From the IMG/VR virus record IMGVR_UViG_3300042545_000473, positions 1-31,072 of that record: a DNA stretch of 31,072 nt. One strand, given 5' to 3'. The position numbers and the translations under genes were made by a program. The notes below the pieces were generated by a model. That model saw only the letters and a list, made by a program, of their open reading frames with translations, was not told the DNA's origin and searched no databases. The DNA is from a virus. Positions 7,115 to 27,744 of this stretch are shown here, piece by piece (within the stretch, counting starts at the first letter, position 1; every line of letters begins with the position of its first letter).

Positions 7115-7118
7115 TATA

Positions 7119-7814
7119 GTGTTTGAGATATTTTTTATCAGTTATCAAGAACCTAATGCAGACGAAAATTGGACAAAATTAAAATCTAGGTTTCCTATAG
7201 CTCAAAGAATTCATGGAGTTAAAGGAATTCACCAAGCCCATATAGCAGCAGCAAAGCAGTCACTAACAAAAATGTTTTATGTTGTTGACGGAGACTCAGT
7301 GATTGCAGATGATTTTAATTTTAACTATGAAGTAAACAAATTAGAAAAAGAACATGTGCATGTATGGCACAGCCAAAATCCTGTTAATGGATTAGTCTAC
7401 GGATACGGTGGTGTAAAACTATTACCTAAGTTAGAAACAATTAATATGGATGTTACCTGTCCCGACATGACCACTAGTATATCTAAACATTTTAAAGAAA
7501 TGCCAACGATATCTAATTTCACTGCATTTAACACTGACCCGTTTAATACTTGGAAGTCTGCATTTCGAGAATGTGTTAAATTGTCTAGTAGAATAATCGA
7601 TAGACAACAAGATTATGAAACTTCTGAAAGATTAAAAATATGGTGTTCTGAGGGGAATGACAAACCATTTGGCAAATTTGCAATATCGGGAGCGTTAGCT
7701 GGTAGAAAATTTGGTTTAGCTAATCGAAATATTTTAAAAGAACTTAAAAAAATCAACGATTTTGAATGGTTAAAGGAACAATATGAGCAACGAGCAAAAG
7801 ATATTTGTTCTTAA
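7119..7814 (+). CDS. GT-A-like protein, tandem paralogue 2 (GTG start)
   Basis: About 231 residues if started at the GTG at 7119, 4 nt after the previous stop with AGG 7 nt upstream. The frame is open further left, but homology with the paralogue begins exactly here: FEIFFISYQEPNADENW against LDIVFLSYDEPNADLHY. The middle has RIHGVKGIHQAHIAAA, then YVVDGDSVI with DGD in place of DAD, then VNGLVYGYGGVKLL and DPFNTWKSAFRECVKL. It lacks the last 60-70 residues of the first copy. A tandem duplication that has diverged at the metal motif suggests a second specificity. It overlaps the radical SAM start by 32 nt. Confidence 0.55.
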   Translation: MFEIFFISYQEPNADENWTKLKSRFPIAQRIHGVKGIHQAHIAAAKQSLTKMFYVVDGDSVIADDFNFNYEVNKLEKEHVHVWHSQNPVNGLVYGYGGVKLLPKLETINMDVTCPDMTTSISKHFKEMPTISNFTAFNTDPFNTWKSAFRECVKLSSRIIDRQQDYETSERLKIWCSEGNDKPFGKFAISGALAGRKFGLANRNILKELKKINDFEWLKEQYEQRAKDICS

Positions 7815-15394: not shown

Positions 15395-15858
15395 AGATTC
15401 TTTTTTCTAATTTGATTAATGTCAACAACGCCAGTGTTTACAGCGCCACCAAAATCACCGTCAACTACCACATTAGCACATAGTTCACGGAACCAACGAT
15501 CTACAATTTCTTCGTCTTTGTCTCCGTCAAAACCATATCCCTCTTGCTTTAATTTTAACACAAAATGCTCGTTCCAGTCAAGCTCAAAAAAGCCATTACG
15601 TATGTTATCTTTATTAATATGTGTATTGAGAACACCTACCCAGGGTTCTTTTAATTTGGTTGCACGATCTTTTGGTGCTAATTTTATTAATGCTTCTTGT
15701 TCTAGAGCAACGGTTGTCTTTTGTTCTACGATTGCAATCTCATCAGTTTTTTGATCAGCTAGTTTTGTAGCTTCTTCAATGGCTGTTTTAGTATCGATAA
15801 GTTGTTGCTCTAATTTATCGATACCCATTATTTTTTTAAAGAATTTTGTTAGCATCAT
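15391..15858 (-). CDS. Conserved phage protein with N-terminal coiled coil
   Basis: A 155-residue protein starting at the ATG at 15858, whose TGA overlap with the QueE stop (ATGA) and GTGGGG upstream support this choice. Residues 1-60 form a long charged helix (DKLEQQLIDTKTAIEEATKL). Residues 75-135 hold a compact domain, ELDWNEHFVLKLKQEGYGFDG then EEIVDRWFRELCANVVVDG, which I know as a recurrent unassigned block in marine T4-like phages. It sits between QueE and RNase H with overlapping stops and starts on both sides. Function unknown. Confidence 0.65.
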   Translation of the reverse strand: MMLTKFFKKIMGIDKLEQQLIDTKTAIEEATKLADQKTDEIAIVEQKTTVALEQEALIKLAPKDRATKLKEPWVGVLNTHINKDNIRNGFFELDWNEHFVLKLKQEGYGFDGDKDEEIVDRWFRELCANVVVDGDFGGAVNTGVVDINQIRKKNL

Positions 15859-16709
15859 GTACCCCACTCATTTTTAAATAGTGGCACTTGTAGTCTATCG
15901 CTATAACGCCAGCCACGTTTCATAGCTGCCAATGCTACATTCTTTGCGTTAAGTGTATAAACACTTTCTACACCACCTACTGGCATTAGATATATATGAC
16001 CGGTAAACCCAGCATGTCGAAATGCACCTGCCGCACACTCTGCATCTTTAATATCTTCTTCCGTTGCCACTACAAATTTCAAATATGCTGTACCAACTTG
16101 TTCGTACTCGCATACAATCTCTGGACAGATAGCTTCTTCCCACTTCTCACCACTTGCTGGCAGTTTAGCACTTACACTAAATGTAACTTCTCTGCCTACT
16201 ACGCTATTCCATTTAGCCAAGTATGCTTTAAATTCTGGTGTAAGCTTCTGAGTACCGTTTGTTTCGAAGGTAATCTCTTTCAAGTCACGCATCTTAGTAT
16301 TGTTTAACAAGTCTGGGTAAGCACGTTGCCAGCCTAGCAACGGCTCTCCGCCTGTGATGACCAAGTGTTCATCGACCCAGTAATCCTGTGGAAGAATTTC
16401 CATAATGCGATCTGTGATAGCTTCGCTTGTAAGCATCGGCGACAAATCTTTAAAGTCTGGATGCCAACTAGCATAACTGTCACAGCCTGTGCTAACTAGG
16501 GGTAAGTCTTCATACTTCTGAAAAGACTCTATTATTGTATGTGTAGCCGCAATGTCAGTTGCTTCGTGACTAACTTCTCCACGCGGCATACCAAAGCCAG
16601 CACATTTGAAATTACAACCAAATGTGCGCAGAAACACACTCGGTACACCCATATATCTACCCTCTCCTTGTATAGAGTAGAAAAGTTCCGCTATCTTAAT
16701 CTTTGACAT
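15855..16709 (-). CDS. queE: 7-carboxy-7-deazaguanine synthase QueE (variant cluster motif)
   Basis: A 284-residue radical SAM enzyme that converts carboxytetrahydropterin to 7-carboxy-7-deazaguanine. IAELFYSIQGEGRYMGVPSVF at the start is the QueE signature, followed by FLRTFGCNFKC, ITGGEPLLGWQ near 118-127 and EITFETNGTQ near 145. The cluster motif is unusual: Cys32 and Cys36 are present, but the third cysteine seems to be Cys76 in STGCDSYASW, 39 residues further on, where the canonical form is CxxxCxxC. The D-S-Y-A-S-W stretch corresponds to the CDSxxxW after the third Cys in bacterial QueE. AAAGGA precedes the ATG; the HNH gene upstream overlaps by 14 nt. Works with FolE, the QueD-like protein and DpdA in this window. 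Confidence 0.9.
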   Translation of the reverse strand: MSKIKIAELFYSIQGEGRYMGVPSVFLRTFGCNFKCAGFGMPRGEVSHEATDIAATHTIIESFQKYEDLPLVSTGCDSYASWHPDFKDLSPMLTSEAITDRIMEILPQDYWVDEHLVITGGEPLLGWQRAYPDLLNNTKMRDLKEITFETNGTQKLTPEFKAYLAKWNSVVGREVTFSVSAKLPASGEKWEEAICPEIVCEYEQVGTAYLKFVVATEEDIKDAECAAGAFRHAGFTGHIYLMPVGGVESVYTLNAKNVALAAMKRGWRYSDRLQVPLFKNEWGT

Positions 16710-17898
16710 CTGTATCCTTTATTATTTCTAAGTTTAACATATTATTCGATAAATGTAAATTCTTTTGGAGAGTTTTACAATTATCCCCGTGCCATCTATT
16801 ATAGTTGGCTGTATTTGATAAAACTTTACCACAGTGTTTACAAGTTTTTTTTGGTTTGTCTAACATTCTTTGTCTTCGCATTTCTAACATTTCAGGAGAT
16901 AATGTTTTACCTAATCTGCGTTCACTCATTGCTTTGCGTTCTTCTTCAGATTTTTTCTTTCCAAAATTAGGATTGTTTTCTCCTCTTGTCCACCACCTAT
17001 CTACTTTCTTGTTACTTTCAGAAATCTTCCTTCTGTGTTCTTCGGATTTTGGGCGTTTTCCTACTTCTCTGGATGCTTCACGCTGTCTGTCTTTACCTTC
17101 CGGAGTATATACTTTGTTTTTAGCCGATGCTCTCATATGTTCAATCTGCTCCGGCGTGTAAATTTCTTTCCAACTTTTGCCTTTTCGAGCAGATGCCGCT
17201 TCTCTCATTTTTTCTGTATGGGCAGGATCTCGTTTTACACCTTTTGTTCTACCACTAGTATTTTTGCGTTGTTTTATCCCTTCAGGTGAATTAAAAAATG
17301 CTTGACGTTTAGCTATCATCATTTCTTTGTATTCTGGATCAGCCCAACGTTTAATGATCGCGGCACGTTGTCTTTCTTTTCCTTCAGGAGTTACTTTAGA
17401 CGGTTTACCCCAATTAGGATTTTCTGGGCCGCGTTTAAACTCTTTTAACTTACTTTTCTCGCCAATCTTCTTTTTAGATTCTTCTGAGTGTTTTCGTCCT
17501 ACCCAAGTGCCGCCTTCTTTGGCATACTTCTCTTTTAACATTTGAGAATAGTGTTTTCTAAATGTTTCATACATCCTACTGGAAATTGTATAGGTATGAT
17601 TTACGCCGCGTTCCTTAGTAGTCATTTTGTTAATGAATGTATTAAACGCAAATGCCATTTTGCTACCGTATATACCTTCAAACTTCATTTTCCATAACAA
17701 TGCGTGAGCAATGTAATGTTCGCGGGCAGTTAGTTGGACTACGTTTGATTTGATATTATCGCCGCCGAAACTACGAGGAATAATATGATGTGTTTCTTTA
17801 TACCCTTGTATAGAACCTCGTAGTTGTGCTTTGTGTATGAGGGATTCATACCACTTACTATATTTGCTTTCTACAAATTTTACGGGCCAGTTTATCAT
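16696..17898 (-). CDS. HNH homing endonuclease with NUMOD3-like repeats
   Basis: A 400-residue basic protein from the ATG at 17898 (a TTG precedes it). The HNH nuclease core is THHIIPRSFGGDN near residue 36, with NVVQLTAREHYIAH following. Residues 120-330 hold repeated basic helices of the NUMOD3 kind (GRKHSEESKKKIGEKSK, KRPKSEEHRRKISESNKK, GKKKSEEERKAMSERRLG), which in homing endonucleases grip DNA. A Cys pair, CKHCGKVL, and a later C sit in the last 50 residues as a possible zinc knuckle. No clear ribosome site. It is inserted between the MazG-like gene and queE and is free-standing. Likely a selfish gene; no intron signs are seen around it. Confidence 0.85.
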   Translation of the reverse strand: MINWPVKFVESKYSKWYESLIHKAQLRGSIQGYKETHHIIPRSFGGDNIKSNVVQLTAREHYIAHALLWKMKFEGIYGSKMAFAFNTFINKMTTKERGVNHTYTISSRMYETFRKHYSQMLKEKYAKEGGTWVGRKHSEESKKKIGEKSKLKEFKRGPENPNWGKPSKVTPEGKERQRAAIIKRWADPEYKEMMIAKRQAFFNSPEGIKQRKNTSGRTKGVKRDPAHTEKMREAASARKGKSWKEIYTPEQIEHMRASAKNKVYTPEGKDRQREASREVGKRPKSEEHRRKISESNKKVDRWWTRGENNPNFGKKKSEEERKAMSERRLGKTLSPEMLEMRRQRMLDKPKKTCKHCGKVLSNTANYNRWHGDNCKTLQKNLHLSNNMLNLEIIKDTDVKD

Positions 17899-17964
17899 CA
17901 ATGTTAAGCAGAATTAGAACAGCATACCTATATAGTGTTCTTCACTCTGTAATTTTAATCTTAC

Positions 17965-18267
17965 TCATAAGTTAATTTCACTTTCAAATATGTTTGACCA
18001 TTTTTTTAATTTAGCAATTTTGTTATCTGCTGATACAAGCACTTCTTTTTTGTCTACTAGATTGTACACAATACAAAGATCAATCATGGCCTGTAAATCT
18101 CCTAACTCTTCTGCTAGATGTTGTCTATTAGTAAGTGGCTTACCAGGTTTGACATTATCTAAACCGAATCGACTAATCTTGCTGATAGCAACAATTACTT
18201 CTGCACATTCCTCTTGAGTAATGTCTAGAATTTCTTTTTCTTTATTATTCATATTACTATTATACAT
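17965..18267 (-). CDS. MazG-like nucleotide pyrophosphohydrolase domain
   Basis: A 100-residue all-helical protein. EECAEVIVAISKI near residue 19 and EELGDLQAMIDL near residue 53 form the EExxE...ExxD metal site typical of MazG-like NTP pyrophosphohydrolases. Family members hydrolyse nucleoside triphosphates or alarmones; marine phages often carry one. Starts at 18267 (overlapping the previous gene by 8 nt) and 18252 are both possible, neither with a clear ribosome site. A substrate among modified dNTPs or ppGpp cannot be told. The 63-nt gap downstream, 17902-17964, separates it from the HNH gene and holds no convincing promoter. Confidence 0.7.
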   Translation of the reverse strand: MYNSNMNNKEKEILDITQEECAEVIVAISKISRFGLDNVKPGKPLTNRQHLAEELGDLQAMIDLCIVYNLVDKKEVLVSADNKIAKLKKWSNIFESEINL

Positions 18268-18424
18268 TCTTTTTTGATAAAGACCAAGAGCCGTCTTGAT
18301 TATCTTTCCAAACTAACTCATCGCCTTCTTTCCAACCTGTTTCTTCGAGCATATCTTCAGGGAAGGGTAATATCAAGTCACCTGTTTCAGGATCGTCTTG
18401 TAGTTCAATTGTCCAATTTTTCAA
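18260..18424 (-). CDS. AbrB/MazE-like small protein (TTG start)
   Basis: A 54-residue protein. The frame is open to 18496 but the strong AGGAG site lies 6 nt before a TTG at 18424, where the SpoVT/AbrB-like pattern begins: NWTIELQDDPETGDLILPFPE then GWKEGDELVWKDNQDG. The beta-hairpin swapped fold binds DNA in AbrB and MazE. The start lies inside the end of the dCMP deaminase gene (20-nt overlap). Similar short proteins are common in phages, and with MazG-like downstream no toxin is apparent, so a small regulator is likelier than an antitoxin. Confidence 0.65.
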   Translation of the reverse strand: MKNWTIELQDDPETGDLILPFPEDMLEETGWKEGDELVWKDNQDGSWSLSKKNV

Positions 18425-18926
18425 TGTTAACTCCTGATTTTTTAAGGAACTCAATTCCTGAATCATCTCTATAGTTTTCACTATAGTAGACACCATTTAT
18501 GCCAGTCTGATATATAAGTTTGGCGCATTCAATACAAGGGGCATGAGTAATGAAAATATCAGCACCATTGCCGCTGTCATTCGACTTTGCTAATTTTGCA
18601 ATAGCATTTGATTCAGCATGAAGTACCTCTGGCTTGGTTTTTAAAGCATATCTCCTAGCATATCCTATATCGGGATCAAAGTCTTCCTCTTCAAAAGGCC
18701 AACGTTCGTAGATCTCATCGGGGTCTAGCCAGCCGCCTGCATCTCGGCTCATATAATCTCGGTATTCACAATCGTTATCCCAACCTGCCGGCATACCATT
18801 ATAGCCAATAGAGATAATACGATCATCTTTAACTACAATAGCACCTACGTGAAGTCTACGTGCTGAACTGAGTTCCGCGAATATCTTTGCGGTCTTCATA
18901 TACGTTTGTTTGAACTTTTCCTTCAT
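18405..18926 (-). CDS. cd: dCMP deaminase
   Basis: A 173-residue zinc deaminase that makes dUMP from dCMP for thymidylate synthesis. The zinc and proton-transfer motif HAE is at residues 103-105 (VLHAESNAIAKL) and the zinc cysteines at 131 and 134 (APCIECAKLIYQTGI). RLHVGAIVVKDDRIISIGYNGMP near residue 25 is typical of phage and bacterial dCMP deaminases. An insert of about 35 residues between 55 and 90 (YMSRDAGGWLDPDEIYERW in part) is acidic and aromatic. The start overlaps the upstream membrane protein gene by 71 nt. No thymidylate synthase is in the window, so the partner enzyme lies elsewhere or comes from the host. Confidence 0.88.
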   Translation of the reverse strand: MKEKFKQTYMKTAKIFAELSSARRLHVGAIVVKDDRIISIGYNGMPAGWDNDCEYRDYMSRDAGGWLDPDEIYERWPFEEEDFDPDIGYARRYALKTKPEVLHAESNAIAKLAKSNDSGNGADIFITHAPCIECAKLIYQTGINGVYYSENYRDDSGIEFLKKSGVNIEKLDN

Positions 18927-19107
18927 TTTCTTTTTTCCATTGTTGGTGTTTGAGTTCTCGACATTGTTTTTTTACTTCTAGAGGAATATCAGGATGCCAT
19001 TCAGCCATACCGCAATCGTATACTCTATACTCGGGCATTGGTGTTAGACTGAGCACTAATACCCACATTAAAAATCCTATTGCAAATCCCACTAGATATT
19101 TTATCAT
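18856..19107 (-). CDS. Small membrane protein, unknown
   Basis: An 83-residue protein with one N-terminal transmembrane helix (YLVGFAIGFLMWVLVLSL), then TPMPEYRVYDCGMAEWHPDIP and a charged tail. Its start overlaps the upstream stop as ATGA. The last 24 codons overlap the beginning of dCMP deaminase in another frame, which is long for an overlap; the membrane part and the MAEWHPDIP segment are the conserved-looking regions. Short inner-membrane proteins of this layout occur in marine T4-like phages. Function unknown. Confidence 0.6.
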   Translation of the reverse strand: MIKYLVGFAIGFLMWVLVLSLTPMPEYRVYDCGMAEWHPDIPLEVKKQCRELKHQQWKKENEGKVQTNVYEDRKDIRGTQFST

Positions 19108-19298
19108 AGTCTATCACTGAGTAGTATTGCACACATGAGTTTATCTTCTGCTGATTTAAAAAAGAATTTCATATAGTCTACAGAAACTTCTGTGGTGTAT
19201 CTATGCCCCGGCAATCCAAAATGTTCTATTATCAAGGCACAACTTTCATTCCACCATTTGTTTTCCTGTGAGTTCCAGGTCAAATTAACGACGTTCAT
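19104..19298 (-). CDS. Small conserved phage protein, unknown
   Basis: A 64-residue protein. FGLPGHRYTTEVSVDYMKFFFKS near the middle, then EDKLMCAILLSDRL, is the kind of short single-domain protein found repeatedly in cyanophage and pelagiphage genomes. It overlaps the upstream gene by 14 nt and the downstream one by 4 nt. No ribosome site is clear, so coupling is likely. Unknown function. Confidence 0.6.
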   Translation of the reverse strand: MNVVNLTWNSQENKWWNESCALIIEHFGLPGHRYTTEVSVDYMKFFFKSAEDKLMCAILLSDRL

Positions 19299-19476
19299 CG
19301 ATTAATACTTTTCTAAATCTATGAATAAAACTTTCTTTTAAGCACGAGTATTCGAGATAGTCTTTAAGACGCATATAGTGTACCCAAATTTGATCCCCCA
19401 AATTAACTACATCAATTACTCGAAAATATTCTCGAGCACCCGCTTCCCATATTTCGCCAGTACTAATTTCTTGCAT
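19285..19476 (-). CDS. Small beta-rich phage protein, unknown
   Basis: A 63-residue protein from the ATG at 19476, which has AAAGGG upstream; the frame extends to an ATG at 19506 without a good site. The sequence, ISTGEIWEAGAREYFRVIDV followed by IWVHYMRLKDYLEYSCLKESF, looks like a small SH3-like barrel of the type that handles bulk small phage proteins. It overlaps the cupin gene end by 14 nt. Unknown function. Confidence 0.55.
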   Translation of the reverse strand: MQEISTGEIWEAGAREYFRVIDVVNLGDQIWVHYMRLKDYLEYSCLKESFIHRFRKVLIDERR

Positions 19477-19930
19477 TTTTAGCCCTTTCAGATAGATATG
19501 TTTCATTATGAATCCACCTGTTATTTACTAAAAATCCCCATTCACGTTTCTGAGGACCGGGCATAAACAATGTCCATGCAGTTACGCTAGGATCAAGCTC
19601 AATACGATGATAGCTGTTAGCCCTACATATACGAAAATGGCCGGGTCCTCGCCATTTACATATCTCATTAAATTTACAACCCTGTTTGTCAAATTGAGGA
19701 GTCCATTCATAATATCCACCTTTAAGAATTAGTGTTGCATAGGGCCAAGGATGATCGTGTACGTCATCCGGATCTGATTTAAGAAATTTATGAATAAAAA
19801 CATTAAACGGAAACCAATCTCTATCTTTTAGAAAAACGTAATACCTTTCAAGATATGGTTGATCGTTTACACGATCCATTATAATTCTTTTACGTTCTAA
19901 TCTTTCTAAAAAATCAAGAAACCATTTCAT
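19463..19930 (-). CDS. Cupin-fold protein
   Basis: A 155-residue protein starting at the ATG at 19930, which overlaps the previous stop as ATGA and lies 8 nt after AGGA; an ATG two codons earlier is the alternative. VHDHPWPYATLILKGGYYEWTP near residue 58 and RGPGHFRICRANSYHRIEL near residue 90 form the two cupin motifs, with histidines able to hold a metal. PGPQKREWGF follows. Metal-bound cupins include dioxygenases, isomerases and simple binding proteins. Placement between modification genes and nucleotide metabolism genes does not settle the role. Confidence 0.65.
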   Translation of the reverse strand: MKWFLDFLERLERKRIIMDRVNDQPYLERYYVFLKDRDWFPFNVFIHKFLKSDPDDVHDHPWPYATLILKGGYYEWTPQFDKQGCKFNEICKWRGPGHFRICRANSYHRIELDPSVTAWTLFMPGPQKREWGFLVNNRWIHNETYLSERAKNARN

Positions 19931-20142
19931 TTGCATGTTCCTAAGAAATCATCTAATCTTTTTGCAGCCTCGTCGAAGTCTACAGCCCAAACTTTTGCTT
20001 CAATTTGGTTATCAATAATACTCATATCAAAAGGAACAACGCCATTAAACCTAAAGTTATCTGGGACCTCAGTAGTAACAGTAAACTCGTGCAGGTTCTT
20101 TGCCCTAAAAATAAGATTATTTGCCATATCTACTGAGTTCAT
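19927..20142 (-). CDS. Small phage protein, unknown
   Basis: A 71-residue protein with AAAGGA 6 nt before the ATG. Beta-rich in the middle (EFTVTTEVPDNFRFNG, then EAKVWAVDFDEAAKRLDDFLG), ending in a short helix. The AVDFDEAAKRLDDFL end resembles short phage proteins of unknown role. The stop overlaps the cupin start. Gap of 16 nt to the upstream gene. Confidence 0.6.
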   Translation of the reverse strand: MNSVDMANNLIFRAKNLHEFTVTTEVPDNFRFNGVVPFDMSIIDNQIEAKVWAVDFDEAAKRLDDFLGTCK

Positions 20143-20158
20143 AGTAATCCTTTAGTTA

Positions 20159-20380
20159 TTACACAAAATCGTATGTTCGTTCAAAAATAGGACCGTCGCA
20201 GATATAAAGTTCACCGTCGATGCCCTTCATAAGATAGTCGCCGGGATTACCTTGTTTGTAATTACCTTCTAGAGTATTGACTCGAAATTCCTCATCAATC
20301 TTTTTAGCATGTACTACAATGGGTCGCTTTACACAAGCACCCATGTCTTCTACTTGTTCAAATGTATCAAATGTTTTCAT
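20159..20380 (-). CDS. PGDYL-motif small protein
   Basis: A 73-residue protein. KRPIVVHAKKIDEEFRVNTLEG leads to NPGDYLMKGIDGELYICDG and FERTYDFV, the pattern of the PGDYL family found in many phages and some bacteria; no biochemical role is established for it. AAGGAA precedes the ATG, which overlaps the stop of the 38-residue gene upstream. Confidence 0.7.
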   Translation of the reverse strand: MKTFDTFEQVEDMGACVKRPIVVHAKKIDEEFRVNTLEGNYKQGNPGDYLMKGIDGELYICDGPIFERTYDFV

Positions 20381-20493
20381 ACTAGTTCCTTAATAAAGTA
20401 TTTTGATGCAGGATATTTTGCCTGCAACCACTCTAATAGGCCCTCTTCAACTGGCAAGCGAACGCTATCAAATTTGTTGGTAATATATTTCAT
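20377..20493 (-). CDS. 38-residue micro-ORF with strong ribosome site
   Basis: ATG at 20493 is preceded by AGGAG with 7 nt spacing. The 38-residue product begins MKYITNKFDSVRLPVEEG and ends LQAKYPASKYFIKELV. Its TGA overlaps the next ATG (ATGA), and the gap to the upstream gene is only 10 nt, so it fills an otherwise empty 123-nt stretch of the operon. Small helix with a hydrophobic face likely. Function unknown. Confidence 0.65.
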   Translation of the reverse strand: MKYITNKFDSVRLPVEEGLLEWLQAKYPASKYFIKELV

Positions 20494-20503
20494 TCTTTAA
20501 CTC

Positions 20504-21052
20504 CTAGTGTATTTCTATATTGCCGGCCAATACAATTCGCTCGTCTTGGGACATGCACTCGGGCACCCCGTGATCTATCCACCCTGGGAATATGATCAGC
20601 ATACCTTCTGTAGGAGTAATATTGTGATCAATTGATTTAAACTGCAAAGGGGTAGGTGGCTCATCCATCTTTAAATAATAACAAAAACTAAATGCCGAAG
20701 CAAAGTGATTATGCGGGTTAGCATAATCACCGGTGTGATAGATAGCACCCCATAACGAACTAATTGAATACGAATAGGGTGGCTGGCGACTGTAATCAAT
20801 AGGTTTAAGTAACTGAGTGATACTGTCCACTACGCCAACCCGCAGAAGATCAAAGAATTGGTTGTAGGGCGCCGCTTGATGATCAATAGGCAAGAGCCAT
20901 TCGGTCATGTCTGCTTTAATATTAGTTTTCCTGCCCTGCTTATCGCCCTGGATTCGTATTAGATCAATCAGAGCAGCGTTAACTGTGTCAGCGTTTTCTA
21001 ATGTGTACGTGTTGATTAGACGTGTGGTGTCAAACATCAGCTTATCGTTCAT
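20504..21052 (-). CDS. Putative 2OG-Fe(II) oxygenase, copy near FolE end
   Basis: A 182-residue protein from the ATG at 21052, which has GGAG 6 nt upstream; an ATG at 21064 lacks that spacing. NPHNHFASAFSFCYYL near residue 117 and GMLIIFPGWIDHGVPE near residue 150, followed by DERIVLAGNI, give the His...His...Arg layout of phage 2-oxoglutarate/Fe(II) dioxygenases (the family with HxH, FPxWxxH and R). The substrate is unknown: protein side chain, lipid or DNA base are all possible. It lies directly after folE. Confidence 0.7.
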   Translation of the reverse strand: MNDKLMFDTTRLINTYTLENADTVNAALIDLIRIQGDKQGRKTNIKADMTEWLLPIDHQAAPYNQFFDLLRVGVVDSITQLLKPIDYSRQPPYSYSISSLWGAIYHTGDYANPHNHFASAFSFCYYLKMDEPPTPLQFKSIDHNITPTEGMLIIFPGWIDHGVPECMSQDERIVLAGNIEIH

Positions 21053-21065
21053 TCTTCGCTCCATT

Positions 21066-21809
21066 TTATCGCTTGTTAGATTCTTGAAGACTCAGTGTAT
21101 CAAAAAACTCTTTCTTAGTGCCAGCATCGTTGGTGAACGCACCTTTAAGTACTGTAGTAGTTGTTGAACTATCGTGGGCCATTATTCCCCTGTTCTCACA
21201 GCACCCGTGAGTCATTCTTAAATAAACACCTACGTTTTCTGAATCTGTTGCTTTTGAAATTTCACGAGCAATGTCGTTGCACAATTCTTCCTGTAGCGTA
21301 CCACGACGAGAACACCACTGAGCAATACGAGTGTACTTGCTAAGGCCAATGAGCTTTTGAGCGGCAATAATCCCGATATAAGCAACGCCACTGACAGGTT
21401 GGTGATGATGACTGCACATACTGCGAAGCTCACTACGTACCACAAGCATTCCTTCGTATCGGTCCTGCGAATCGTTCGGGAATGCTGTAGCGTCTGGTGC
21501 TGGTTCATATCTTCCTTCCATTATTTCGTTAAAATACATTTTAGCAAGGCGTCGTGCTGTACCCTTGCTGTTAGGATCGTTTTCGCGATCAATAAGTAAT
21601 CGATCAAGTACTAGTTCAAATGCTTCTGCGGCTTCGTCGATGAGTTGCTCTTTGTTATGATCGTTAACATATTCACTAATGTTATCGCCTGCCCAGAAGC
21701 GTTTGTTGTCGCGTCTCATCTTTGCGCGAAGGTAGTTTCCTAGATACTTTTCTTCCTGGTATCCGCCATCGCCTGCCATTGCGTCCAGGCCTGTTTCTTT
21801 ATTTGTCAA
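21066..21809 (-). CDS. folE: GTP cyclohydrolase I (FolE)
   Basis: A 247-residue protein, catalysing GTP to dihydroneopterin triphosphate, first step of folate and of 7-deazaguanine synthesis. RSMCSHHHQPVSG (Cys132, His134/135) and MTHGCCENRGIMAHDS (Cys203/204) give the zinc ligands; GLSKYTRIAQWCSRRGTLQEEL is the GTP-binding signature. The start is TTG at 21809 with GGAG 8 nt upstream; a Met at codon 11 is an alternative. A near-perfect sigma70 promoter precedes it. The first 50 residues are a phage-type extension. With QueE, the QueD-like protein and DpdA nearby, its role is more likely deazaguanine than folate. Confidence 0.92.
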   Translation of the reverse strand: MTNKETGLDAMAGDGGYQEEKYLGNYLRAKMRRDNKRFWAGDNISEYVNDHNKEQLIDEAAEAFELVLDRLLIDRENDPNSKGTARRLAKMYFNEIMEGRYEPAPDATAFPNDSQDRYEGMLVVRSELRSMCSHHHQPVSGVAYIGIIAAQKLIGLSKYTRIAQWCSRRGTLQEELCNDIAREISKATDSENVGVYLRMTHGCCENRGIMAHDSSTTTTVLKGAFTNDAGTKKEFFDTLSLQESNKR

Positions 21810-21849
21810 TTTATATTCTCCGAGTTAATGACGTGGATGTCTTTGTACT

Positions 21850-21878
21850 ATAATATAGGTTTATTTAGGTTTTGTCAA
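21850..21878 (-). promoter_or_regulatory. Sigma70-like early promoter before folE
   Basis: On the minus strand TTGACA (21878-21873) and TATTAT (21855-21850) are 17 nt apart, a near-perfect host sigma70 promoter. Predicted start near 21843 leaves a leader of about 34 nt with a GGAG site. It lies in the 87-nt gap between the 2OG oxygenase and folE, one of the largest gaps in the window. Supports early expression of folE and the genes after it. Confidence 0.75.
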
Positions 21879-21896
21879 GTAGTTTAAGAAAATATT

Positions 21897-22517
21897 TCAT
21901 TTTATTGACAATGATGCTTCTCGAAAGCCAAGATTTCCTTTAACGAACACGTTAAATGCAATAGAAATTCTATCATCCTTGGAATTGTTTATTTCCACTG
22001 AATGCATTAGATTTGAAGGAAATATAATTATTTGATTTTCGATTGGAGCAATAGACCATGTATCACAATTAAAAATATTCCATTCTGCAAATCCTAATTG
22101 TAATGTAGGAGAAGAAATATTTAAATATTTTTGATATTTATGAAATGTAATCCGCCCGGTATCTTCTGCTGCCTTTATATATAACACTCCTGAAAACAAC
22201 GAATTGCTATGAGTATGTTCTTTTGCAAACCCCTCCGGCAAAAATTTAACAGCCCACGAAGTTGTTATATAAAATTCTACTTCGGGTTTAAATTTTAAAA
22301 GATTATAAGCATAATCATCAAATGCGTTGAGAATTTTATTTCTAATTTCTAAACACCTAGGGTCATCTAATAATGTAACACTTTCAGTAATAAACCCGTT
22401 GTTATCAGACATCGGGTAAAACTCTAAATCTAAAATGTAGTTAACACTTTTAGATGATAGTGGGGCTATATCAGATGTGTAAAGAGGAACACCAAATAAA
22501 GAGGAAGCTGAAGGCAT
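21897..22517 (-). CDS. Putative 2OG-Fe(II) oxygenase
   Basis: A 206-residue protein of the TIGR02466-like group of 2-oxoglutarate/Fe(II) oxygenases. LFGVPLYTSDIAPL starts the protein; KEHTHSNSLFSGVLYIKA near residue 98 (HxH), then GRITFHKY, then NQIIIFPSNLMHSVEIN near residue 160 (second His) and DDRISIAFNVFVKG with the 2OG-binding Arg near 182. No recognisable ribosome site; 16 nt after the glycosyltransferase. Substrate unknown. It is distinct from, but related in plan to, the 182-residue oxygenase on the other side of folE. Confidence 0.75.
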   Translation of the reverse strand: MPSASSLFGVPLYTSDIAPLSSKSVNYILDLEFYPMSDNNGFITESVTLLDDPRCLEIRNKILNAFDDYAYNLLKFKPEVEFYITTSWAVKFLPEGFAKEHTHSNSLFSGVLYIKAAEDTGRITFHKYQKYLNISSPTLQLGFAEWNIFNCDTWSIAPIENQIIIFPSNLMHSVEINNSKDDRISIAFNVFVKGNLGFREASLSIK

Positions 22518-22533
22518 AGGTTATACTCTATAG

Positions 22534-23634
22534 TTATGTTAACATCTTTAATAGTTTATTACAACTAAAGAATTGTTTTGTTAATGTATCTACTTGTTTA
22601 TTTAGGCTAGGTAAGAATTTTTCATAATTATTCATATACTGAATAATCTTAGCACACACTTCTGGCCTATGTGCCTCGTATGCACCATAGCTTTCAGTCC
22701 ATTCGCTAGGATACTTAAATGCATCAAAAGCCATTTCACTGTAACTTAGTCTATCTGGCACCATAGGAATAGCATTGACAATAGCACCTTCATACCAACT
22801 GATGCCTAGAGTTTCTTGTAAGTTAGCACTGAACACTAGTTTAGCTTCACCTAACAAATTATGATATTCATTTTTAGTTAGTTGCTGATCTTGACAAACA
22901 ACAAATTCATATTGCGGCAAGTGTTCTTTTAAGTCACGGAAGATTTCTACCTGCTTCTCAGGAGCAACACGATGAGGAAACAAGATAAGATCACGCTTGG
23001 GCATGTTTTTGTACATTGCCAGGGTGTCCTGCATATATTCCATGGGCCATCCTGTGCGAACAAACTTAGGATACTCTCCGCTTAGGATTTCTTCAAGTTC
23101 CTCCTCGTACCAAGGATTTTCTACACTATGTCCATTATTTAATAGTTCCCTATGAAACATTTCTATATGAAAGTCAGTGGCAAAGTAATTGTGATCAAAG
23201 GCAGAAAAGAATGATTTTTCTGCATTACGCACCCACGGCTTATTGCCAACGAGACGTCCGAGAAAGTCTTGAGGATCATAACTACCAGCATGCCATAGGC
23301 CGTGTGTGATTACTGGAATGCCCAGTAGCTCACTCATATACTTTAAGTTTATAATGCCTGGATGCCAAGCGTCAGTAAAAATAAAGTGGTCGCCGGGACA
23401 AACGGATCCGCTGCAAAATAACCGACCCATCTGTTCAACCTGACTAGCCTTGTAGATATTAGTGCCGCCAAAATTAAGAAAGGCGCCAGGAGTAGTGGCA
23501 CTAGGAATGTCCGTAGGACCAGAGATAACTTGAACATTGTGTCCTGCTTTTTGTAAGAGAGTAGGTACATGAGTCTTCCATTGACCTGTGTACCTTGTCT
23601 CAACTGACTCTAAATCAACGAGAAAAATTGTCAT
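22534..23634 (-). CDS. GT-B fold glycosyltransferase
   Basis: A 366-residue protein from the ATG at 23634 (the open frame extends to 23763, but only as a shadow of the gene upstream). MTIFLVDLESVETRYTGQW opens the N-terminal Rossmann-like domain; the C-terminal half has LILFPHRVAPEKQVEIF near residue 240, LLGEAKLVFSANLQETLGISW and AIPMVPDRLSYSEM near 300-330, the GT4-like donor site. The last motif recalls the tRNA-queuosine mannosyltransferase family, though only by eye. It overlaps the 84-residue gene by 20 nt and lies near the QueD-like gene, so glycosylation of the modified DNA base is possible; other acceptors are not excluded. Confidence 0.7.
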   Translation of the reverse strand: MTIFLVDLESVETRYTGQWKTHVPTLLQKAGHNVQVISGPTDIPSATTPGAFLNFGGTNIYKASQVEQMGRLFCSGSVCPGDHFIFTDAWHPGIINLKYMSELLGIPVITHGLWHAGSYDPQDFLGRLVGNKPWVRNAEKSFFSAFDHNYFATDFHIEMFHRELLNNGHSVENPWYEEELEEILSGEYPKFVRTGWPMEYMQDTLAMYKNMPKRDLILFPHRVAPEKQVEIFRDLKEHLPQYEFVVCQDQQLTKNEYHNLLGEAKLVFSANLQETLGISWYEGAIVNAIPMVPDRLSYSEMAFDAFKYPSEWTESYGAYEAHRPEVCAKIIQYMNNYEKFLPSLNKQVDTLTKQFFSCNKLLKMLT

Positions 23635-23869
23635 TGCGCTGACGATAGTTGTTGTTGCCACTGCGATTGTATTCACCTCGTGGCTTACGTGGTCGTGTGC
23701 TGTAGTAGTAGTTGTTCCATACTTGGCTATCTCTATTGTAGAGATTAGCCTCATTAAAGTCACACAGTTCGAATCGACAAAAATCGTGAAACTTTTCTAG
23801 ATCATCAAAGATTTTAACAATCTCAGGTTTAGCTTCCCAATAGTTAACATCGCGATAGTTCTTAGCCAT
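23615..23869 (-). CDS. Small protein with Arg/Asn/Tyr-rich tail
   Basis: An 84-residue protein with GGAAAG before the ATG at 23869. The first 50 residues form a compact helical domain (YWEAKPEIVKIFDDLEKFHDFCRFEL); the last 35 are low-complexity, rich in Arg, Asn, Tyr and Gly (YYYSTRPRKPRGEYNRSG), which is typical of nucleic-acid-binding disordered tails. It is coupled to the glycosyltransferase by overlap and follows the QueD-like gene by 11 nt. Function unknown. Confidence 0.65.
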   Translation of the reverse strand: MAKNYRDVNYWEAKPEIVKIFDDLEKFHDFCRFELCDFNEANLYNRDSQVWNNYYYSTRPRKPRGEYNRSGNNNYRQRNDNFSR

Positions 23870-23880
23870 TATAGCTTTCC

Positions 23881-24270
23881 TTAATATTTAATAAATGAAC
23901 CATTTTCTCCGTCTTCGGAGACCTCAATCCAAACCTCACGGTTGGGATACTTTGCAGAGATAGCGTCAAACAAATCGCCTGACATCATCTCACAACTCTT
24001 AAAGTCTAAACTTAGTGTAGCATCTTTATAAAGATTTAGCAACCATCGTTTGAACTGAATAAACTCAATATCACGATCATCGTGGGTAACACCAATCCAC
24101 ACTTTAAAGTGAAAGATGTGACGATGTGGATAGCCTAGAAAACTCACATCATACTCGTCACCTGTTGCTAGGTTAGGATCTGTAAGTGCGGCTGGATATT
24201 TGTGCATACCTTCTTTCTGGAAGGTAACCCAAATCATTTTATTAGGACGAATGTCTTGTCGAATAATCAT
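23881..24270 (-). CDS. queD: QueD-like 6-carboxytetrahydropterin synthase
   Basis: A 129-residue protein with the T-fold pattern of QueD/PTPS: EGMHKYPAAL (His23) and GYPHRHIFHFKVWIG (His49, His51) supply the three zinc histidines, DRDIEFIQFKRWL corresponds to the DFxxLK helix, and VWIEVSEDGENGSF to the C-terminal Glu motif. It would turn FolE product into carboxytetrahydropterin for QueE. The cysteine that precedes HxH in bacterial QueD is absent, so the reaction may differ. The start overlaps the previous stop as ATGA; a Met at codon 12 is an alternative start. Assignment rests on the motif set and the folE, queE and dpdA context. Confidence 0.7.
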   Translation of the reverse strand: MIIRQDIRPNKMIWVTFQKEGMHKYPAALTDPNLATGDEYDVSFLGYPHRHIFHFKVWIGVTHDDRDIEFIQFKRWLLNLYKDATLSLDFKSCEMMSGDLFDAISAKYPNREVWIEVSEDGENGSFIKY

Positions 24271-24470
24271 TCTGTTAAAGCCTTTGAAACAGAGTTAATA
24301 TCATTTTGATCCATAAAGAATTCATAGATAGATTCGCTATCAATCTTACCTTCTTTGTCTTTAGTTGCCTGAATAAAATTCACAGCAAACAATCCTTTGG
24401 GACTTTGACATTCCCATTTTTTAACACGCAGTTGAAAACCTGCTGTGTCTTTAAGGATAACTTCTTTCAT
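24267..24470 (-). CDS. Small phage protein, unknown
   Basis: A 67-residue protein between the 134-residue gene and the QueD-like gene, with ATGA overlaps on both sides. LRVKKWECQSPKGLFAVNFIQ then SESIYEFFMDQNDINSV. Beta-hairpin followed by a helix, no known motif. Complete coupling suggests co-production with the QueD-like protein. Unknown. Confidence 0.6.
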   Translation of the reverse strand: MKEVILKDTAGFQLRVKKWECQSPKGLFAVNFIQATKDKEGKIDSESIYEFFMDQNDINSVSKALTE

Positions 24471-24871
24471 CTTAAACTCTCCATAGTGATAATTTTTGCT
24501 AGTTCTTCACCGAGATCTTTGTCGTCTGTGACCACGTGTAAGCTGTGTCTATGATCATCCTTTTGACGATCATATTTGGTAGTTTCAATAATAGTTCCAC
24601 CGGCTGCACCGTATATGTTTAATCGAAATCCCTGTGACTGAATATTTGGGCCGTCACTATCGACGCTGATAGCATTACCATACTCGAGTTCGTCAGTGTC
24701 GTCCATTAACCATTTACGAAGTTTTTGTTTAAATGTTAATTTCATAGGTTTTTCTTCTGTATACGGGTTTGATCTAATTCTTTGTTTAAGAACTGCTGAG
24801 GATTTATTCAACGCACGTTGTAATCGATGGATAGACTTTGCAGTTGAGGCATATTGCCCAATATTACTCAT
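24467..24871 (-). CDS. Conserved phage protein, unknown
   Basis: A 134-residue protein from the ATG at 24871, which overlaps the previous stop as ATGA; an internal Met at codon 43 (24745) is where the more conserved-looking domain starts and could be the true start. That domain reads MKLTFKQKLRKWLMDD, then GFRLNIYGAAGGTIIETTKYD, then HSLHVVTDDKDLGEELAKI. The first 42 residues are basic and helical. I know this C-terminal block as a frequent unassigned protein of marine T4-like phages. Unknown function. Confidence 0.6.
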   Translation of the reverse strand: MSNIGQYASTAKSIHRLQRALNKSSAVLKQRIRSNPYTEEKPMKLTFKQKLRKWLMDDTDELEYGNAISVDSDGPNIQSQGFRLNIYGAAGGTIIETTKYDRQKDDHRHSLHVVTDDKDLGEELAKIITMESLR

Positions 24872-25401
24872 TTTATAATCTCATCTTTGCCATATTGATC
24901 CCAACTAGTAAACTTATCTCTACCAAGTAGGTCGTGGAGGTTATGACACCACACTCCGGGATTAGTTGCTTTAAAATCTTTATCGTCTATCTTTATTGTA
25001 GCATTATATCCCAGCTGTTGTAAATAGGGCAGTTTAACCGAAATCTGCGGAATAAACTGACGCTTCTCTACAAGACCGCTTTCCAATAAGCCTTCAACTT
25101 GTGCTAGATCTAGATCCAGCGTACACCAAAAATCTTCGTCGGCATCTAGACAAACATAGATCATATCTTCCCATAGACGCCATTGTTCTGCATTGTTGAT
25201 TTCTAATTTAGGAAAACTTTGATTAGCACCAAAGTAGATATGAGTACATTTATGGTCACGAGCAAGTTCCATAATTACATAGGCATCGTGTACACCTGTT
25301 ACAAACAGAGTTTTCATTCCATATGCAGGGGTCTTTTCGATCTCAATGCCTGTAAAAAATGTAATGCTATCTGCAACACCCGATTCGTAATTTCTTTTCA
25401 T
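24868..25401 (-). CDS. Conserved phage protein near QueD, unknown
   Basis: A 177-residue alpha/beta protein with ATGA overlaps on both sides. MKTLFVTGVHDAYVIMELA looks like a Rossmann-type strand and helix; later WCTLDLDLAQVEGLLESG, then FIPQISVKLPYLQQLGYNA and IKIDDKDFKATNPGVWCHNLH near the end, all with conserved-looking aromatic and acidic residues. No canonical active site is recognised. In the run between dpdA and the QueD-like gene it is the best candidate for an extra enzyme of the deazaguanine pathway, by position only. Confidence 0.6.
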   Translation of the reverse strand: MKRNYESGVADSITFFTGIEIEKTPAYGMKTLFVTGVHDAYVIMELARDHKCTHIYFGANQSFPKLEINNAEQWRLWEDMIYVCLDADEDFWCTLDLDLAQVEGLLESGLVEKRQFIPQISVKLPYLQQLGYNATIKIDDKDFKATNPGVWCHNLHDLLGRDKFTSWDQYGKDEIIK

Positions 25402-25805
25402 ACTGTTTGTTTTCTTTGTTGACGCTCTGCTTCGTGATGATCACACAGAGTTTTAATCCACCCACCATCTCTTCTTTTACCCGGCGAGCCACATTCTTCA
25501 CAACTAGCATCTGCCCACGCTTCTGCCATACGAACCATTCCATTAATATATTCGTCGCCGCCATCATAGTAGAAACGTAGTCCGCCAAACTTCTCTTTAA
25601 TCTGTGCCACTGTTACCTGTGGCACTACTTCTAACTGTTTGTTTTTCCAATCAATGTGATGCTGAATATTAGAGCACAGTTTTTCTAGAATAGGCCACCA
25701 ACCTTCACCGCAGGCAAATCCGCCATACTTGCCGCTAAACATCTTTGGAAAACGTTCTTCCATCTGTTTAGCAAATGCATTGTATTTTTCAAATTCGTCA
25801 CTCAT
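25398..25805 (-). CDS. Phage protein with zinc-ribbon-like end
   Basis: A 135-residue protein. GGFACGEGWWPILEKLCSNIQ and KEKFGGLRFYYDGGDEYING are followed by a likely zinc site, CEECGSPGKRRDGGWIKTLCDHH (positions 101-124), with two Cys pairs or Cys-Cys-Cys-His ligands. It is a known type of unassigned phage protein. Its ATG overlaps the previous stop (TAATG), and its stop overlaps the 177-residue start. Nucleic-acid or protein binding through the ribbon is possible. Confidence 0.7.
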   Translation of the reverse strand: MSDEFEKYNAFAKQMEERFPKMFSGKYGGFACGEGWWPILEKLCSNIQHHIDWKNKQLEVVPQVTVAQIKEKFGGLRFYYDGGDEYINGMVRMAEAWADASCEECGSPGKRRDGGWIKTLCDHHEAERQQRKQTV

Positions 25806-25993
25806 TACCAGTTACTCACGTCAGTATTGTCAACTTTAACTTCCTTGCCCAATAGTTCAAATTGAACTGTTGTGGTAGGCCCAATGCCGCTAGAGTGTTC
25901 CTCAACAATTTCAAATTGAGGAATCTCCGGAAAACGATTAGCAATATCTGCCAATGTTTTAATCTGTGTCTGTGTTAGTATATATTTTTTCAT
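25805..25993 (-). CDS. Small phage protein, unknown
   Basis: A 62-residue protein with ATGA overlap to the coiled-coil gene upstream. YILTQTQIKTLADIANRF forms an N-terminal helix, then FEIVEEHSSGIGPTTTVQF a beta hairpin. No motif recognised. Coupled on both sides. Confidence 0.6.
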   Translation of the reverse strand: MKKYILTQTQIKTLADIANRFPEIPQFEIVEEHSSGIGPTTTVQFELLGKEVKVDNTDVSNW

Positions 25994-26199
25994 CGTTCGT
26001 CATCAAAATCGACAGTTTCGTGATCGTGTTCCCATTGCTTACGTCTTAGTATAGCAAGTTCATCTCTTAAAAGCAACCTCTGTTTCTTCAATTCTTGCAT
26101 TTTCATATCTTCAAACAGTCCATTCTTTTCTAGTGTATCGATTTTTTGGTCCAATACTCTATGAGATTCCTCTAAATGTTTAATTCTGTTTTCGTACAT
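25990..26199 (-). CDS. DUF465/YdcH-like coiled-coil protein
   Basis: A 69-residue helical hairpin protein: RIKHLEESHRVLDQKIDTLE, then DMKMQELKKQRLLLRDEL. This matches the layout of the DUF465 (YdcH-like) family, where L..H..LD..I and LKK..L.LKDE recur. AAGGAG precedes the ATG and the gene follows dpdA by 9 nt. Role in this family is not established. Confidence 0.65.
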   Translation of the reverse strand: MYENRIKHLEESHRVLDQKIDTLEKNGLFEDMKMQELKKQRLLLRDELAILRRKQWEHDHETVDFDDER

Positions 26200-26208
26200 A
26201 GTTACTCC

Positions 26209-27744
26209 TTATTCCGCTACAAGTTTATCCAATTCACCATCTTCACGATCGTCGTTCCAGGAATCTTTATCTTCACTACCTTCTTCATAGAACAGGTCGT
26301 TTGAAATATTTGTAACACCACCACGTAGGCGTGAGCCTTCCAAATTCTGCATAAAGCCTCTGGTTTCTGCATCAGCAATCATAGCAAATGCAGATTCTTT
26401 GTCTGGACAATTAAACAGTTCTTCAACAAAGCGATCAAAATACAAGATATTACGAGGAACCCAATCGCTATACTCATCGCTCATATCACGATCTTTGTTC
26501 TTCTTCCACATTCTCCAATCTGGACGAATCTTAGCTTGTTCAATATCTGCCAAATTGTTAGCACGTTGTACAGCTACAATGTGTTGATAGACATTATGTC
26601 CCATCATTAGTGCATAACCAAAACTGTCCCAAGATGTTTTGCCTTCTTTGCCGATCTTGTTTAACATTCCCGGCTTGTAATGACAAACGTCTGCTACATT
26701 AAGTCTACGGCCGATCTCGCTTTCGAACGGAAACGGAATGTCTGGACGTGATGCAAGTGCTTTATTATCCGGAGCCTTGTCCATAATAACACTCCAACGC
26801 TTGGCTGTGTGCTGACTATTGGTATAAACCAGTCCGTGTGCAGTTGCAATGAATGGCGAAGCACAGTCAAAGCTGATTGTAAAGTTAGGATTAACGTGTT
26901 TACGGATCTGACGTTGAATACTAGTTAGGTAGCATGACCAATCTAACTGTGCAGTACCCAAGAAGTGCATCCAATCCTTGCCTTCTAACATACCGTCAAA
27001 GCGCATAGTGATCAATCGACGCAGAGTAATATGCATCTTGCACATATTAGCACCACCCATCGCCCAACCCTCAGCGGCTTTATCGCCCCAAACTTTCTTA
27101 TCACTGAATTCTTTAACGCCTTCGTACCACGCTTCCGCAGTATCCCAGTTACTACCCTGTAGAACATTCAAGAACTTGGTAGCACCTAAACGATTTTCTA
27201 AGAAGTACTTGTTATTGTGGCGAGTCTTTTCTAGACAGTCTTCAAACGATTTTAATCCAGTCTTCGGACTGTGAATATGATCACAAGCCCAAGTAGGAAC
27301 GTCAAGCATCATTGACCAATCAGCAGTTAGTTCAAGCCAGTTAAGGATATCGTCTCGAGTTTTATTAGCTGCTTTACCTTCGAAGTCTAACCAATCAAAC
27401 TTAAGAATGCCTTTACCAATCTGGTAACCACCAGAGTCTCCTAAGATCATTGTCTTACTACGATCACGTTGTTGAATCATTGAATCGTGATCCATTGTTT
27501 TAGTAAGATCTAACTGTGCATGACCTGCTGAATACAAACCATACTTGTAATAAAAGTAGCCTTGTTCGGGATTTAAAAAATTCATACCTTCAATACCACG
27601 ATCGAATCCTGCTGGAATACGATCTTTAGGTACAAACTCTTCCTTACGTTGTTTTGCAATGTAAGTGCTGTAAAAACTACTAATCGCAGGCAAATAGACT
27701 GCGTAGTCTTTCTGTAGGGGTGTTAAATCAACTGGTTGTTTCAT
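26209..27744 (-). CDS. dpdA: DpdA-like DNA guanine transglycosylase
   Basis: A 511-residue protein of the tRNA-guanine transglycosylase superfamily. MILGDSGGYQIGKG (Asp102 region) matches TGT TDSGGFQ; FLNVLQGSN near 191 matches the QGS segment; GWAMGG near 226 the base pocket; HFLGTAQ near 260; and SFDCASPF near 291 carries the nucleophile aspartate (Asp293), as FDCxxP in TGT. The C-terminal CxCxxC zinc site of TGT is absent, as in phage DpdA proteins, which exchange guanine for 7-deazaguanines in DNA. GAGAGA precedes the ATG. It overlaps the upstream gene by 17 nt. With FolE, QueE and the QueD-like protein this forms a DNA-modification set. Confidence 0.85.
   Translation of the reverse strand: MKQPVDLTPLQKDYAVYLPAISSFYSTYIAKQRKEEFVPKDRIPAGFDRGIEGMNFLNPEQGYFYYKYGLYSAGHAQLDLTKTMDHDSMIQQRDRSKTMILGDSGGYQIGKGILKFDWLDFEGKAANKTRDDILNWLELTADWSMMLDVPTWACDHIHSPKTGLKSFEDCLEKTRHNNKYFLENRLGATKFLNVLQGSNWDTAEAWYEGVKEFSDKKVWGDKAAEGWAMGGANMCKMHITLRRLITMRFDGMLEGKDWMHFLGTAQLDWSCYLTSIQRQIRKHVNPNFTISFDCASPFIATAHGLVYTNSQHTAKRWSVIMDKAPDNKALASRPDIPFPFESEIGRRLNVADVCHYKPGMLNKIGKEGKTSWDSFGYALMMGHNVYQHIVAVQRANNLADIEQAKIRPDWRMWKKNKDRDMSDEYSDWVPRNILYFDRFVEELFNCPDKESAFAMIADAETRGFMQNLEGSRLRGGVTNISNDLFYEEGSEDKDSWNDDREDGELDKLVAE

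Follow-up and report, generated by a model that had tools for sequence, protein, structure and literature searches.

A candidate QueC-free route to 7-deazaguanine in phage DNA, with a glycosyltransferase that probably decorates the base

How does a phage that encodes deazaguanine enzymes and a DNA guanine transglycosylase, and shows no QueC, make the base that it inserts? The question is raised by the IMG/VR record IMGVR_UViG_3300042545_000473, a 31,072-base fragment of a larger phage that was analysed at its full length and is called the window here. A preliminary description, made from the letters alone, had listed FolE, a QueD-like protein, QueE and a DpdA-like transglycosylase, without QueC. 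All four open reading frames (ORFs) were found in place on the minus strand, interspersed with other genes rather than in one block, as had been said; a glycosyltransferase-like gene adjoining the QueD-like one had been missed. Overall, the observation was partly confirmed and the interpretation partly supported. We give a probability of about 0.6 to the reading that this phage pathway puts a 7-deazaguanine in the place of guanine in DNA along a route free of QueC, the glycosyltransferase probably decorating the base. No QueC was found in the window; its absence from a fragment alone carries little weight, and relatives are needed to judge it.

A possible reason for the existence of QueC-less deazaguanine phages is that another enzyme stands in QueC's place. 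The candidate named here is the QueD-like protein (23881-24270, minus strand, 129 residues), which gave no match in a Pfam search and belongs to phrog_17812 (E=2.8e-30), a small family without an assigned function. From 26 phage records with phrog_17812, 11 named phages, one per lineage, were taken as carriers and compared with 12 QueE phages lacking a phrog_17812 match, hand-picked for host spread and not random. QueE was present in all 11 carriers, none of which has a full-length or nearly full-length QueC, and QueC was present in all 12 controls (3/3 and 9/9 in two sets). Fisher's test gave p=7e-7, a value that is uncorrected for shared ancestry and depends on the hand-picked controls. A matched pair shows the same exchange: the QueEs of Cellulophaga phage phiST and Flavobacterium phage immuto_2-6A are 76% identical, and phiST has QueD, QueE, FolE and phrog_17812 with no QueC, while immuto_2-6A has QueC, QueD, FolE and DpdA with no phrog_17812 match. 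Because phrog_17812 and QueC are mutually exclusive in these 23 QueE phages, phrog_17812 appears to replace QueC. For the same reason the carboxy or derived base of the preliminary description fits better than its alternative, preQ0 from the host. QueC was also not found in 23 of 24 distinct records of window-type relatives, which may be incomplete, the exception being G014.

Sequence-profile searches of the Protein Data Bank (PDB) with phrog_17812 and with the window DpdA gave chance-level matches only, so structure prediction was needed. The AlphaFold2 model of the phrog_17812 protein (mean predicted local distance difference test, pLDDT, 89.8) has the QueD/PTPS T-fold. E. coli QueD gives its best PDB matches (E 5e-4 to 1e-3, template modelling score about 0.62-0.68; Z 10-11 by VIA), and T-fold structures that carry out different chemistries, QueF-like ones for instance, match it as well. 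In an alignment of 22 family members, three histidines with PTPS-like spacing (H23, H49 and H51) and the pair E119-D120 are invariant, and a KSCE motif is conserved. The module is common: matches were found in at least 598 stretches of viral contigs. Eighty phrog_17812 loci, many of them cut by contig ends, contain the glycosyltransferase in 75 cases, DpdA in 71, a 177-residue protein in 77, FolE in 59 and QueE in 46. Two carriers have fusions: in Vibrio phage Bakedbeans phrog_17812 is joined to an N-terminal part that was not assigned (L092 7212-8363), and in Chryseobacterium phage MA9V-3 to an endonuclease VII-like part (L095 7464-8345).

Two of the enzymes expected to act before this protein in the pathway are present. 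FolE, GTP cyclohydrolase I (21066-21809, minus strand), matches PF01227, GTP_cyclohydroI, with 128.8 bits against a cut-off of 27 (E=2.1e-37). QueE, 7-carboxy-7-deazaguanine synthase (15855-16709, minus strand), matches phrog_2076 (E=3.2e-50), and NCBIfam QueE models match it far under their cut-offs. About 37 extra residues lie between its second and third cluster cysteines; despite this insertion, C32, C36 and C76 align with the CX3CX2C motif of other QueEs. A similar insertion occurs in PA5oct, BUCT-ZZ01, X1, Ahp1 and KVP40, with a short one in phiST, and is absent from Phosso, ACP17, MA9V-3 and 9g. Among the window's relatives, QueE is present in 12 of the 13 records searched. The match in G004 and G005 spans two TAA stops, yet the ORF in G004 has 282 codons (locus L019). 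Upstream of queE, a homing endonuclease gene (16696-17901, minus strand; phrog_655, NUMOD3 motifs) overlaps its start by 14 bases at the 3' end. Two genes of the 2OG-Fe(II) oxygenase family (20504-21064 and 21897-22517, minus strand) stand on either side of folE; among the 80 phrog_17812 loci, each of them occurs in 2.

The DpdA-like DNA guanine transglycosylase (26209-27744, minus strand, 511 residues) gave no meaningful match in Pfam, PHROG or NCBIfam at the limits used. Its AlphaFold2 model, built from 39 aligned family sequences (mean pLDDT 83.5), was compared with known structures, the test on which the preliminary call had been made to depend, and the result fell inside the tRNA-guanine transglycosylase (TGT) family. 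The best 13 Foldseek matches in the PDB are all TGTs (E 1.2e-7 to 1.8e-4), the first match of another kind being a radical SAM enzyme (E 1e-3), and with VIA (Z 19.6, root mean square deviation 4.7, 304 residues aligned) 50 of 50 among the matches listed are TGTs. The motifs D103-SGGYQ, D148, Q196-G, G230 and F292-DCASP fit the active site of TGTs, the residues being paired by motif. D103, D148, Q196 and D293 are invariant among the 39 sequences, and G230 is kept in at least 90%; we take these five to be the counterparts of D102, D156, Q203, G230 and D280 of the Z. mobilis TGT. The C-x-C-x-x-C zinc motif of Tgt proper, CDCYTC in E. coli, occurs in none of the 39. The call of DpdA, with DSGGYQ and FDCASP present and the zinc site gone, is therefore borne out by the model.

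Relatives of this enzyme are numerous, with 405 related stretches in viral contigs, and distant ones occur in PA5oct-like Pseudomonas phages (44% identity), Phosso (31%) and Vibrio phage 2.275.O (29%). Searches of the viral contigs with other DpdAs found no loci with the PA5oct query and two with that of Phosso. The profile of DpdA2 (phrog_10773, the KVP40 type) matched neither the window DpdA nor anything in G004, G005, G001, G014, PA5oct or Phosso, and profile comparison gave a distant relation between the two families (hhalign 89%, E 2e-6). Against single sequences the window profile aligned weakly, the probability being 16% with E. coli Tgt and 0.5% with the DpdA of phage 9g (DpdA1). The modelled window DpdA belongs to a TGT-fold family separate from DpdA2. 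That it acts on DNA, not tRNA, is predicted from its DpdA relatives.

The gene that had been overlooked (22534-23763, minus strand, 409 residues from a GTG start) lies directly downstream of the phrog_17812 gene. The protein itself matches Glyco_transf_61 no more than weakly (E 0.04); its homologues match Glycos_transf_1, that of X1 over the cut-off (8e-12), which points to a glycosyltransferase, probably of the GT-B type. The relatives start about 43 residues after the GTG. Of the 151 loci holding both, some of which overlap, 142 have the gene at a distance of no more than 300 bp from phrog_17812. Further clear glycosyltransferases were sought near the window's tail genes and not retained, the Pfam search of four ORFs at 3971-7814 giving one weak match below the cut-off (E 0.037).

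Among carriers, the distribution of this glycosyltransferase follows the type of transglycosylase. Each of the 11 named carriers has a transglycosylase candidate, and these fall into three types. With the window protein as query, glycosyltransferase homologues were found in PA5oct, Phosso, BUCT-ZZ01, ACP17 and X1, where the transglycosylase is of the window type (the first two) or DpdA2 (the last three). A profile including those five found none in the whole genomes of phiST, RHph_I1_18, Bakedbeans, Ahp1 and D479, and a weak match with stops inside in MA9V-3 (E 6e-4) was counted as absent. These six carry a small putative transglycosylase of the type first seen in phiST itself, assigned by homology in MA9V-3 and by profile comparison with those two phages' enzymes in D479 (97%, only the flank being searched), Ahp1 (88%), Bakedbeans (75%) and RHph_I1_18 (49%). 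The glycosyltransferase therefore occurs in 5/5 carriers with the large types and 0/6 with the phiST type (p 0.002). In 10 genome_contigs loci that were not used for the rule, all from metagenome-assembled genomes and judged probably phage contigs, 8 have glycosyltransferase homologues: 7/7 of those with window-type DpdA or DpdA2, 0/2 of those with the phiST type, of which one contig measures 5.3 kb, and a single locus in which no transglycosylase was seen. The rule fails outside the carriers, since KVP40 (DpdA2, QueC) and Vibrio phage 2.275.O (window-type DpdA, QueC) have no glycosyltransferase. This pattern suggests, without proving it, that the 7-deazaguanine is glycosylated.

The strongest competitor, for which the chances fall only a little short of even, is that the glycosyltransferase has nothing to do with the modified base and decorates a different target: a protein, a base of another kind or the surface of the cell. 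Parts of Iyer et al. 2021 (PMC7824862) assign the glycosyltransferase clusters of large phages to surface polysaccharide, the acceptor chemistry proposed here is an inference, and 6 of the 11 named carriers do without the gene. A thymidylate-synthase-family protein (PF00303) is encoded in 5 of 13 records tested (PA5oct, Phosso, G017, G018 and G020), where a hydroxymethylpyrimidine acceptor is possible. PF00303 is absent from BUCT-ZZ01, ACP17 and X1, which leaves these without a T4 gp42-like maker of such an acceptor and renders it unlikely there. Working against an unrelated role are the position of the gene beside phrog_17812 in unrelated phages and its correlation with the transglycosylase type. 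Moreover, in Xanthomonas phage PhiXhv-12 (L285 6911-10145) a Gat-QueC, a PIG-L de-N-acetylase and a related glycosyltransferase follow each other in a row, and the DpdA is distantly related to that of the window (E 3e-7). Judged from its gene content, this row ties the glycosyltransferase family to deazaguanine genes and hints at a deazaguanine bearing an amino sugar.

The QueC-free route that we favour would run as follows. FolE, whose family assignment is clear, would start the pathway from GTP, and a QueD, encoded elsewhere in the phage genome or supplied by the host, would provide CPH4. QueE, likewise clear as to its family, would convert this into 7-carboxy-7-deazaguanine (CDG), which the phrog_17812 protein, as its mutual exclusion with QueC suggests, would process in QueC's place. 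The likeliest chemistry is a metal-assisted decarboxylation of CDG to 7-deazaguanine, to which the histidine triad and a pterin-type glutamate pocket would be suited. DpdA, with the fold and motifs of a TGT, would then swap the base into DNA, as predicted from its relatives, and the product of the nearly always neighbouring glycosyltransferase gene probably adds a sugar to the inserted base, as gene association suggests. The full sequence of events, in which a repurposed QueD decarboxylates CDG, DpdA inserts the product and the base is glycosylated, possibly as a C-glycoside at the nucleophilic carbon 7, is offered tentatively and is rather less probable than its opposite. As another decarboxylase candidate, the phiST gene between phrog_17812 and the transglycosylase was considered and set aside; it reads as a P-loop kinase and is found only in phiST and MA9V-3 among 16 loci.

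It is unlikely, by comparison, that the inserted base is CDG itself, with phrog_17812 in some other role, for example handing it to DpdA or altering its carboxylate so as to provide an acceptor for the glycosyltransferase. CDG is the last certain intermediate when QueC is absent, the model also resembles QueF-like enzymes, and position 7 of plain 7-deazaguanine has no evident oxygen or nitrogen for a glycosyltransferase to use. The conserved metal-type histidines and KSCE motif favour catalysis, and phiST-type carriers have phrog_17812 without a glycosyltransferase, so its role should be independent of glycosylation.

The QueD-like label raises a further option, which we consider improbable: that the protein at 23881-24270 is a divergent QueD, that the phage makes CDG, and that a QueC of the host converts it to preQ0 for insertion by DpdA. 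The best structural match is indeed to QueD, no other QueD was found in G004 or D479, and most control genomes give QueC-profile matches (12/14, 11 of them over the cut-off). Yet a canonical QueD is also encoded in 10 of the 11 named carriers, weakly so in Ahp1 (24.9 bits, the cut-off being 22.4). It accompanies phrog_17812 in 5 of 11 large records of window relatives, QueD being found in 6 of the 16 relatives' records searched. The cysteine in front of H-G-H/Y and the Asp-His pair, present in 11 of 11 canonical QueDs, have no counterpart in phrog_17812, as read from a profile alignment of only 71% probability. Furthermore, it is QueC and not QueD that phrog_17812 excludes. Since a canonical QueD is encoded alongside and the catalytic residues of QueD are gone, phrog_17812 is a repurposed QueD fold and not the QueD of the pathway; the preliminary label holds for the fold and the three PTPS-like histidines and is not supported for the function. 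That the genes serve queuosine formation in the tRNA of the host instead of modifying phage DNA is very improbable: passages of Hutinet et al. 2019 (PMC6884629) propose such a tRNA role for phages with pathway genes and no DpdA, but here an enzyme is encoded that has the fold of TGTs and lacks their zinc motif, and a pathway that departs from the preQ0 route before QueC would not by itself feed queuosine.

Several observations weigh against the QueC-free route with decoration of the base. In the carrier D479 QueD gave no match, and a partial QueC-profile match (69/210 positions, 32.8 bits) exceeds the Pfam cut-off; G014 has two partial QueC matches over the cut-off (25.7 and 22.5 bits). The D479 ORF lacks the SGGxDS loop and resembles the second QueC-like ORF of KVP40, the G014 ORFs lack the zinc motif, and in both cases the judgement that this is not QueC was made on these motifs only. 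No record of the window's relatives is known to be complete. In G004 (186 kb, DpdA 97% identical) no QueD was detected even with a profile of 11 QueDs; the host may supply it, or phrog_17812 may have more than one job there. Faecalibacterium phage Roos, a twelfth carrier with a phrog_17812 homologue at L229 9004-9312, has no detectable FolE, QueE or QueD and no QueC. The phiST-type enzyme aligns weakly with the window DpdA (26-40%) and at 1% or less with E. coli Tgt. Its DpdA label rests on homology to gp206 of immuto, annotated as DpdA in its record, with which a profile of the six phiST-type enzymes aligns at 99% (E 1.6e-18). Vibrio phage 2.275.O makes it clear that the type of transglycosylase alone does not fix the product. 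Finally, the literature consulted contained no nucleoside measurement for any phrog_17812 carrier. No published report of glycosylated 7-deazaguanine in DNA was found either, a weak negative from a limited literature search.

QueC-like ORFs without the SGGxDS loop and with zinc-type cysteines occur in both KVP40 (L239, 133-135 kb) and D479 (L238); in KVP40 this ORF shares the genome with a full QueC. A partial match in X1, below the cut-off, comes from an ORF without the zinc motif and is hence not taken as QueC. The loop and zinc motif were used as defined in the relevant part of PMC13329287.

Other genes of the window include that of the 177-residue protein (24868-25401, minus strand), between the DpdA and QueD-fold genes. 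This conserved protein has no assigned function: a Pfam search gave no match and a PDB sequence-profile search chance-level matches only. Its homologue in Acidovorax phage ACP17 sits between FolE and DpdA2, and it is possibly a further component of the module. A 157-residue protein (19463-19936, minus strand), cupin-like by eye and without a match in Pfam, is found in 57 of the 80 phrog_17812 loci. On the plus strand, two tandem ORFs (7783-9156 and 9149-10648) encode twitch-domain radical SAM proteins (NCBIfam NF033640, E 4e-103 and 4e-90).

The DNA of the window phage may bear a base so far unmeasured. If the glycosyltransferase acts on that base, it would represent a new class of purine DNA hypermodification, which would bear on phage resistance to restriction and other DNA-targeting defences. 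Such a glycosylated purine would have a wide distribution among large phages that are uncultured and among Pseudomonas phages of the PA5oct kind. Synechococcus phage BUCT-ZZ01 and Pseudomonas phage PA5oct are cultured and suited for testing.

Among known systems, phage Bipper was described in a passage of Hutinet et al. 2019 (PMC6884629) as lacking only QueC, and CDG was suggested as a possible base. The same source studied Vibrio phage nt-1, and KVP40 served here as representative of the KVP40/nt-1 pathway. Like the window, KVP40 has FolE, a QueE with the same kind of insertion and a DpdA related to TGTs whose sequence is remote from that of Tgt; unlike it, KVP40 has QueC and DpdA2 and lacks both this glycosyltransferase family and a phrog_17812 match. 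PA5oct is credited in Iyer et al. 2021 (PMC7824862) with a system for deazaguanine synthesis and incorporation, of which the passages on this phage name neither a QueC replacement nor the glycosyltransferase as parts. It shares with the window a DpdA (44% identical), an adjoining glycosyltransferase and phrog_17812 and a nearby QueE, and differs in also having canonical QueD matches. phiST resembles the window in FolE, QueE, phrog_17812 and the absence of QueC, and differs from it in a canonical QueD, the small putative transglycosylase of 259 residues and the absence of a glycosyltransferase of the window family.

A protein called DpdL was reportedly predicted by Cui et al. in 2023 to be a decarboxylase of 7-carboxy-7-deazaguanine, and dDG and dCDG are said to have been reported in phages. 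DpdL and phrog_17812 are alike in their predicted action on CDG, and phrog_17812 may be DpdL. If so, its role is already known, and what is new is its fold, the exclusion test and the association with the glycosyltransferase. The kind of system is already known, the module without QueC and with a glycosyltransferase being one variant of it.

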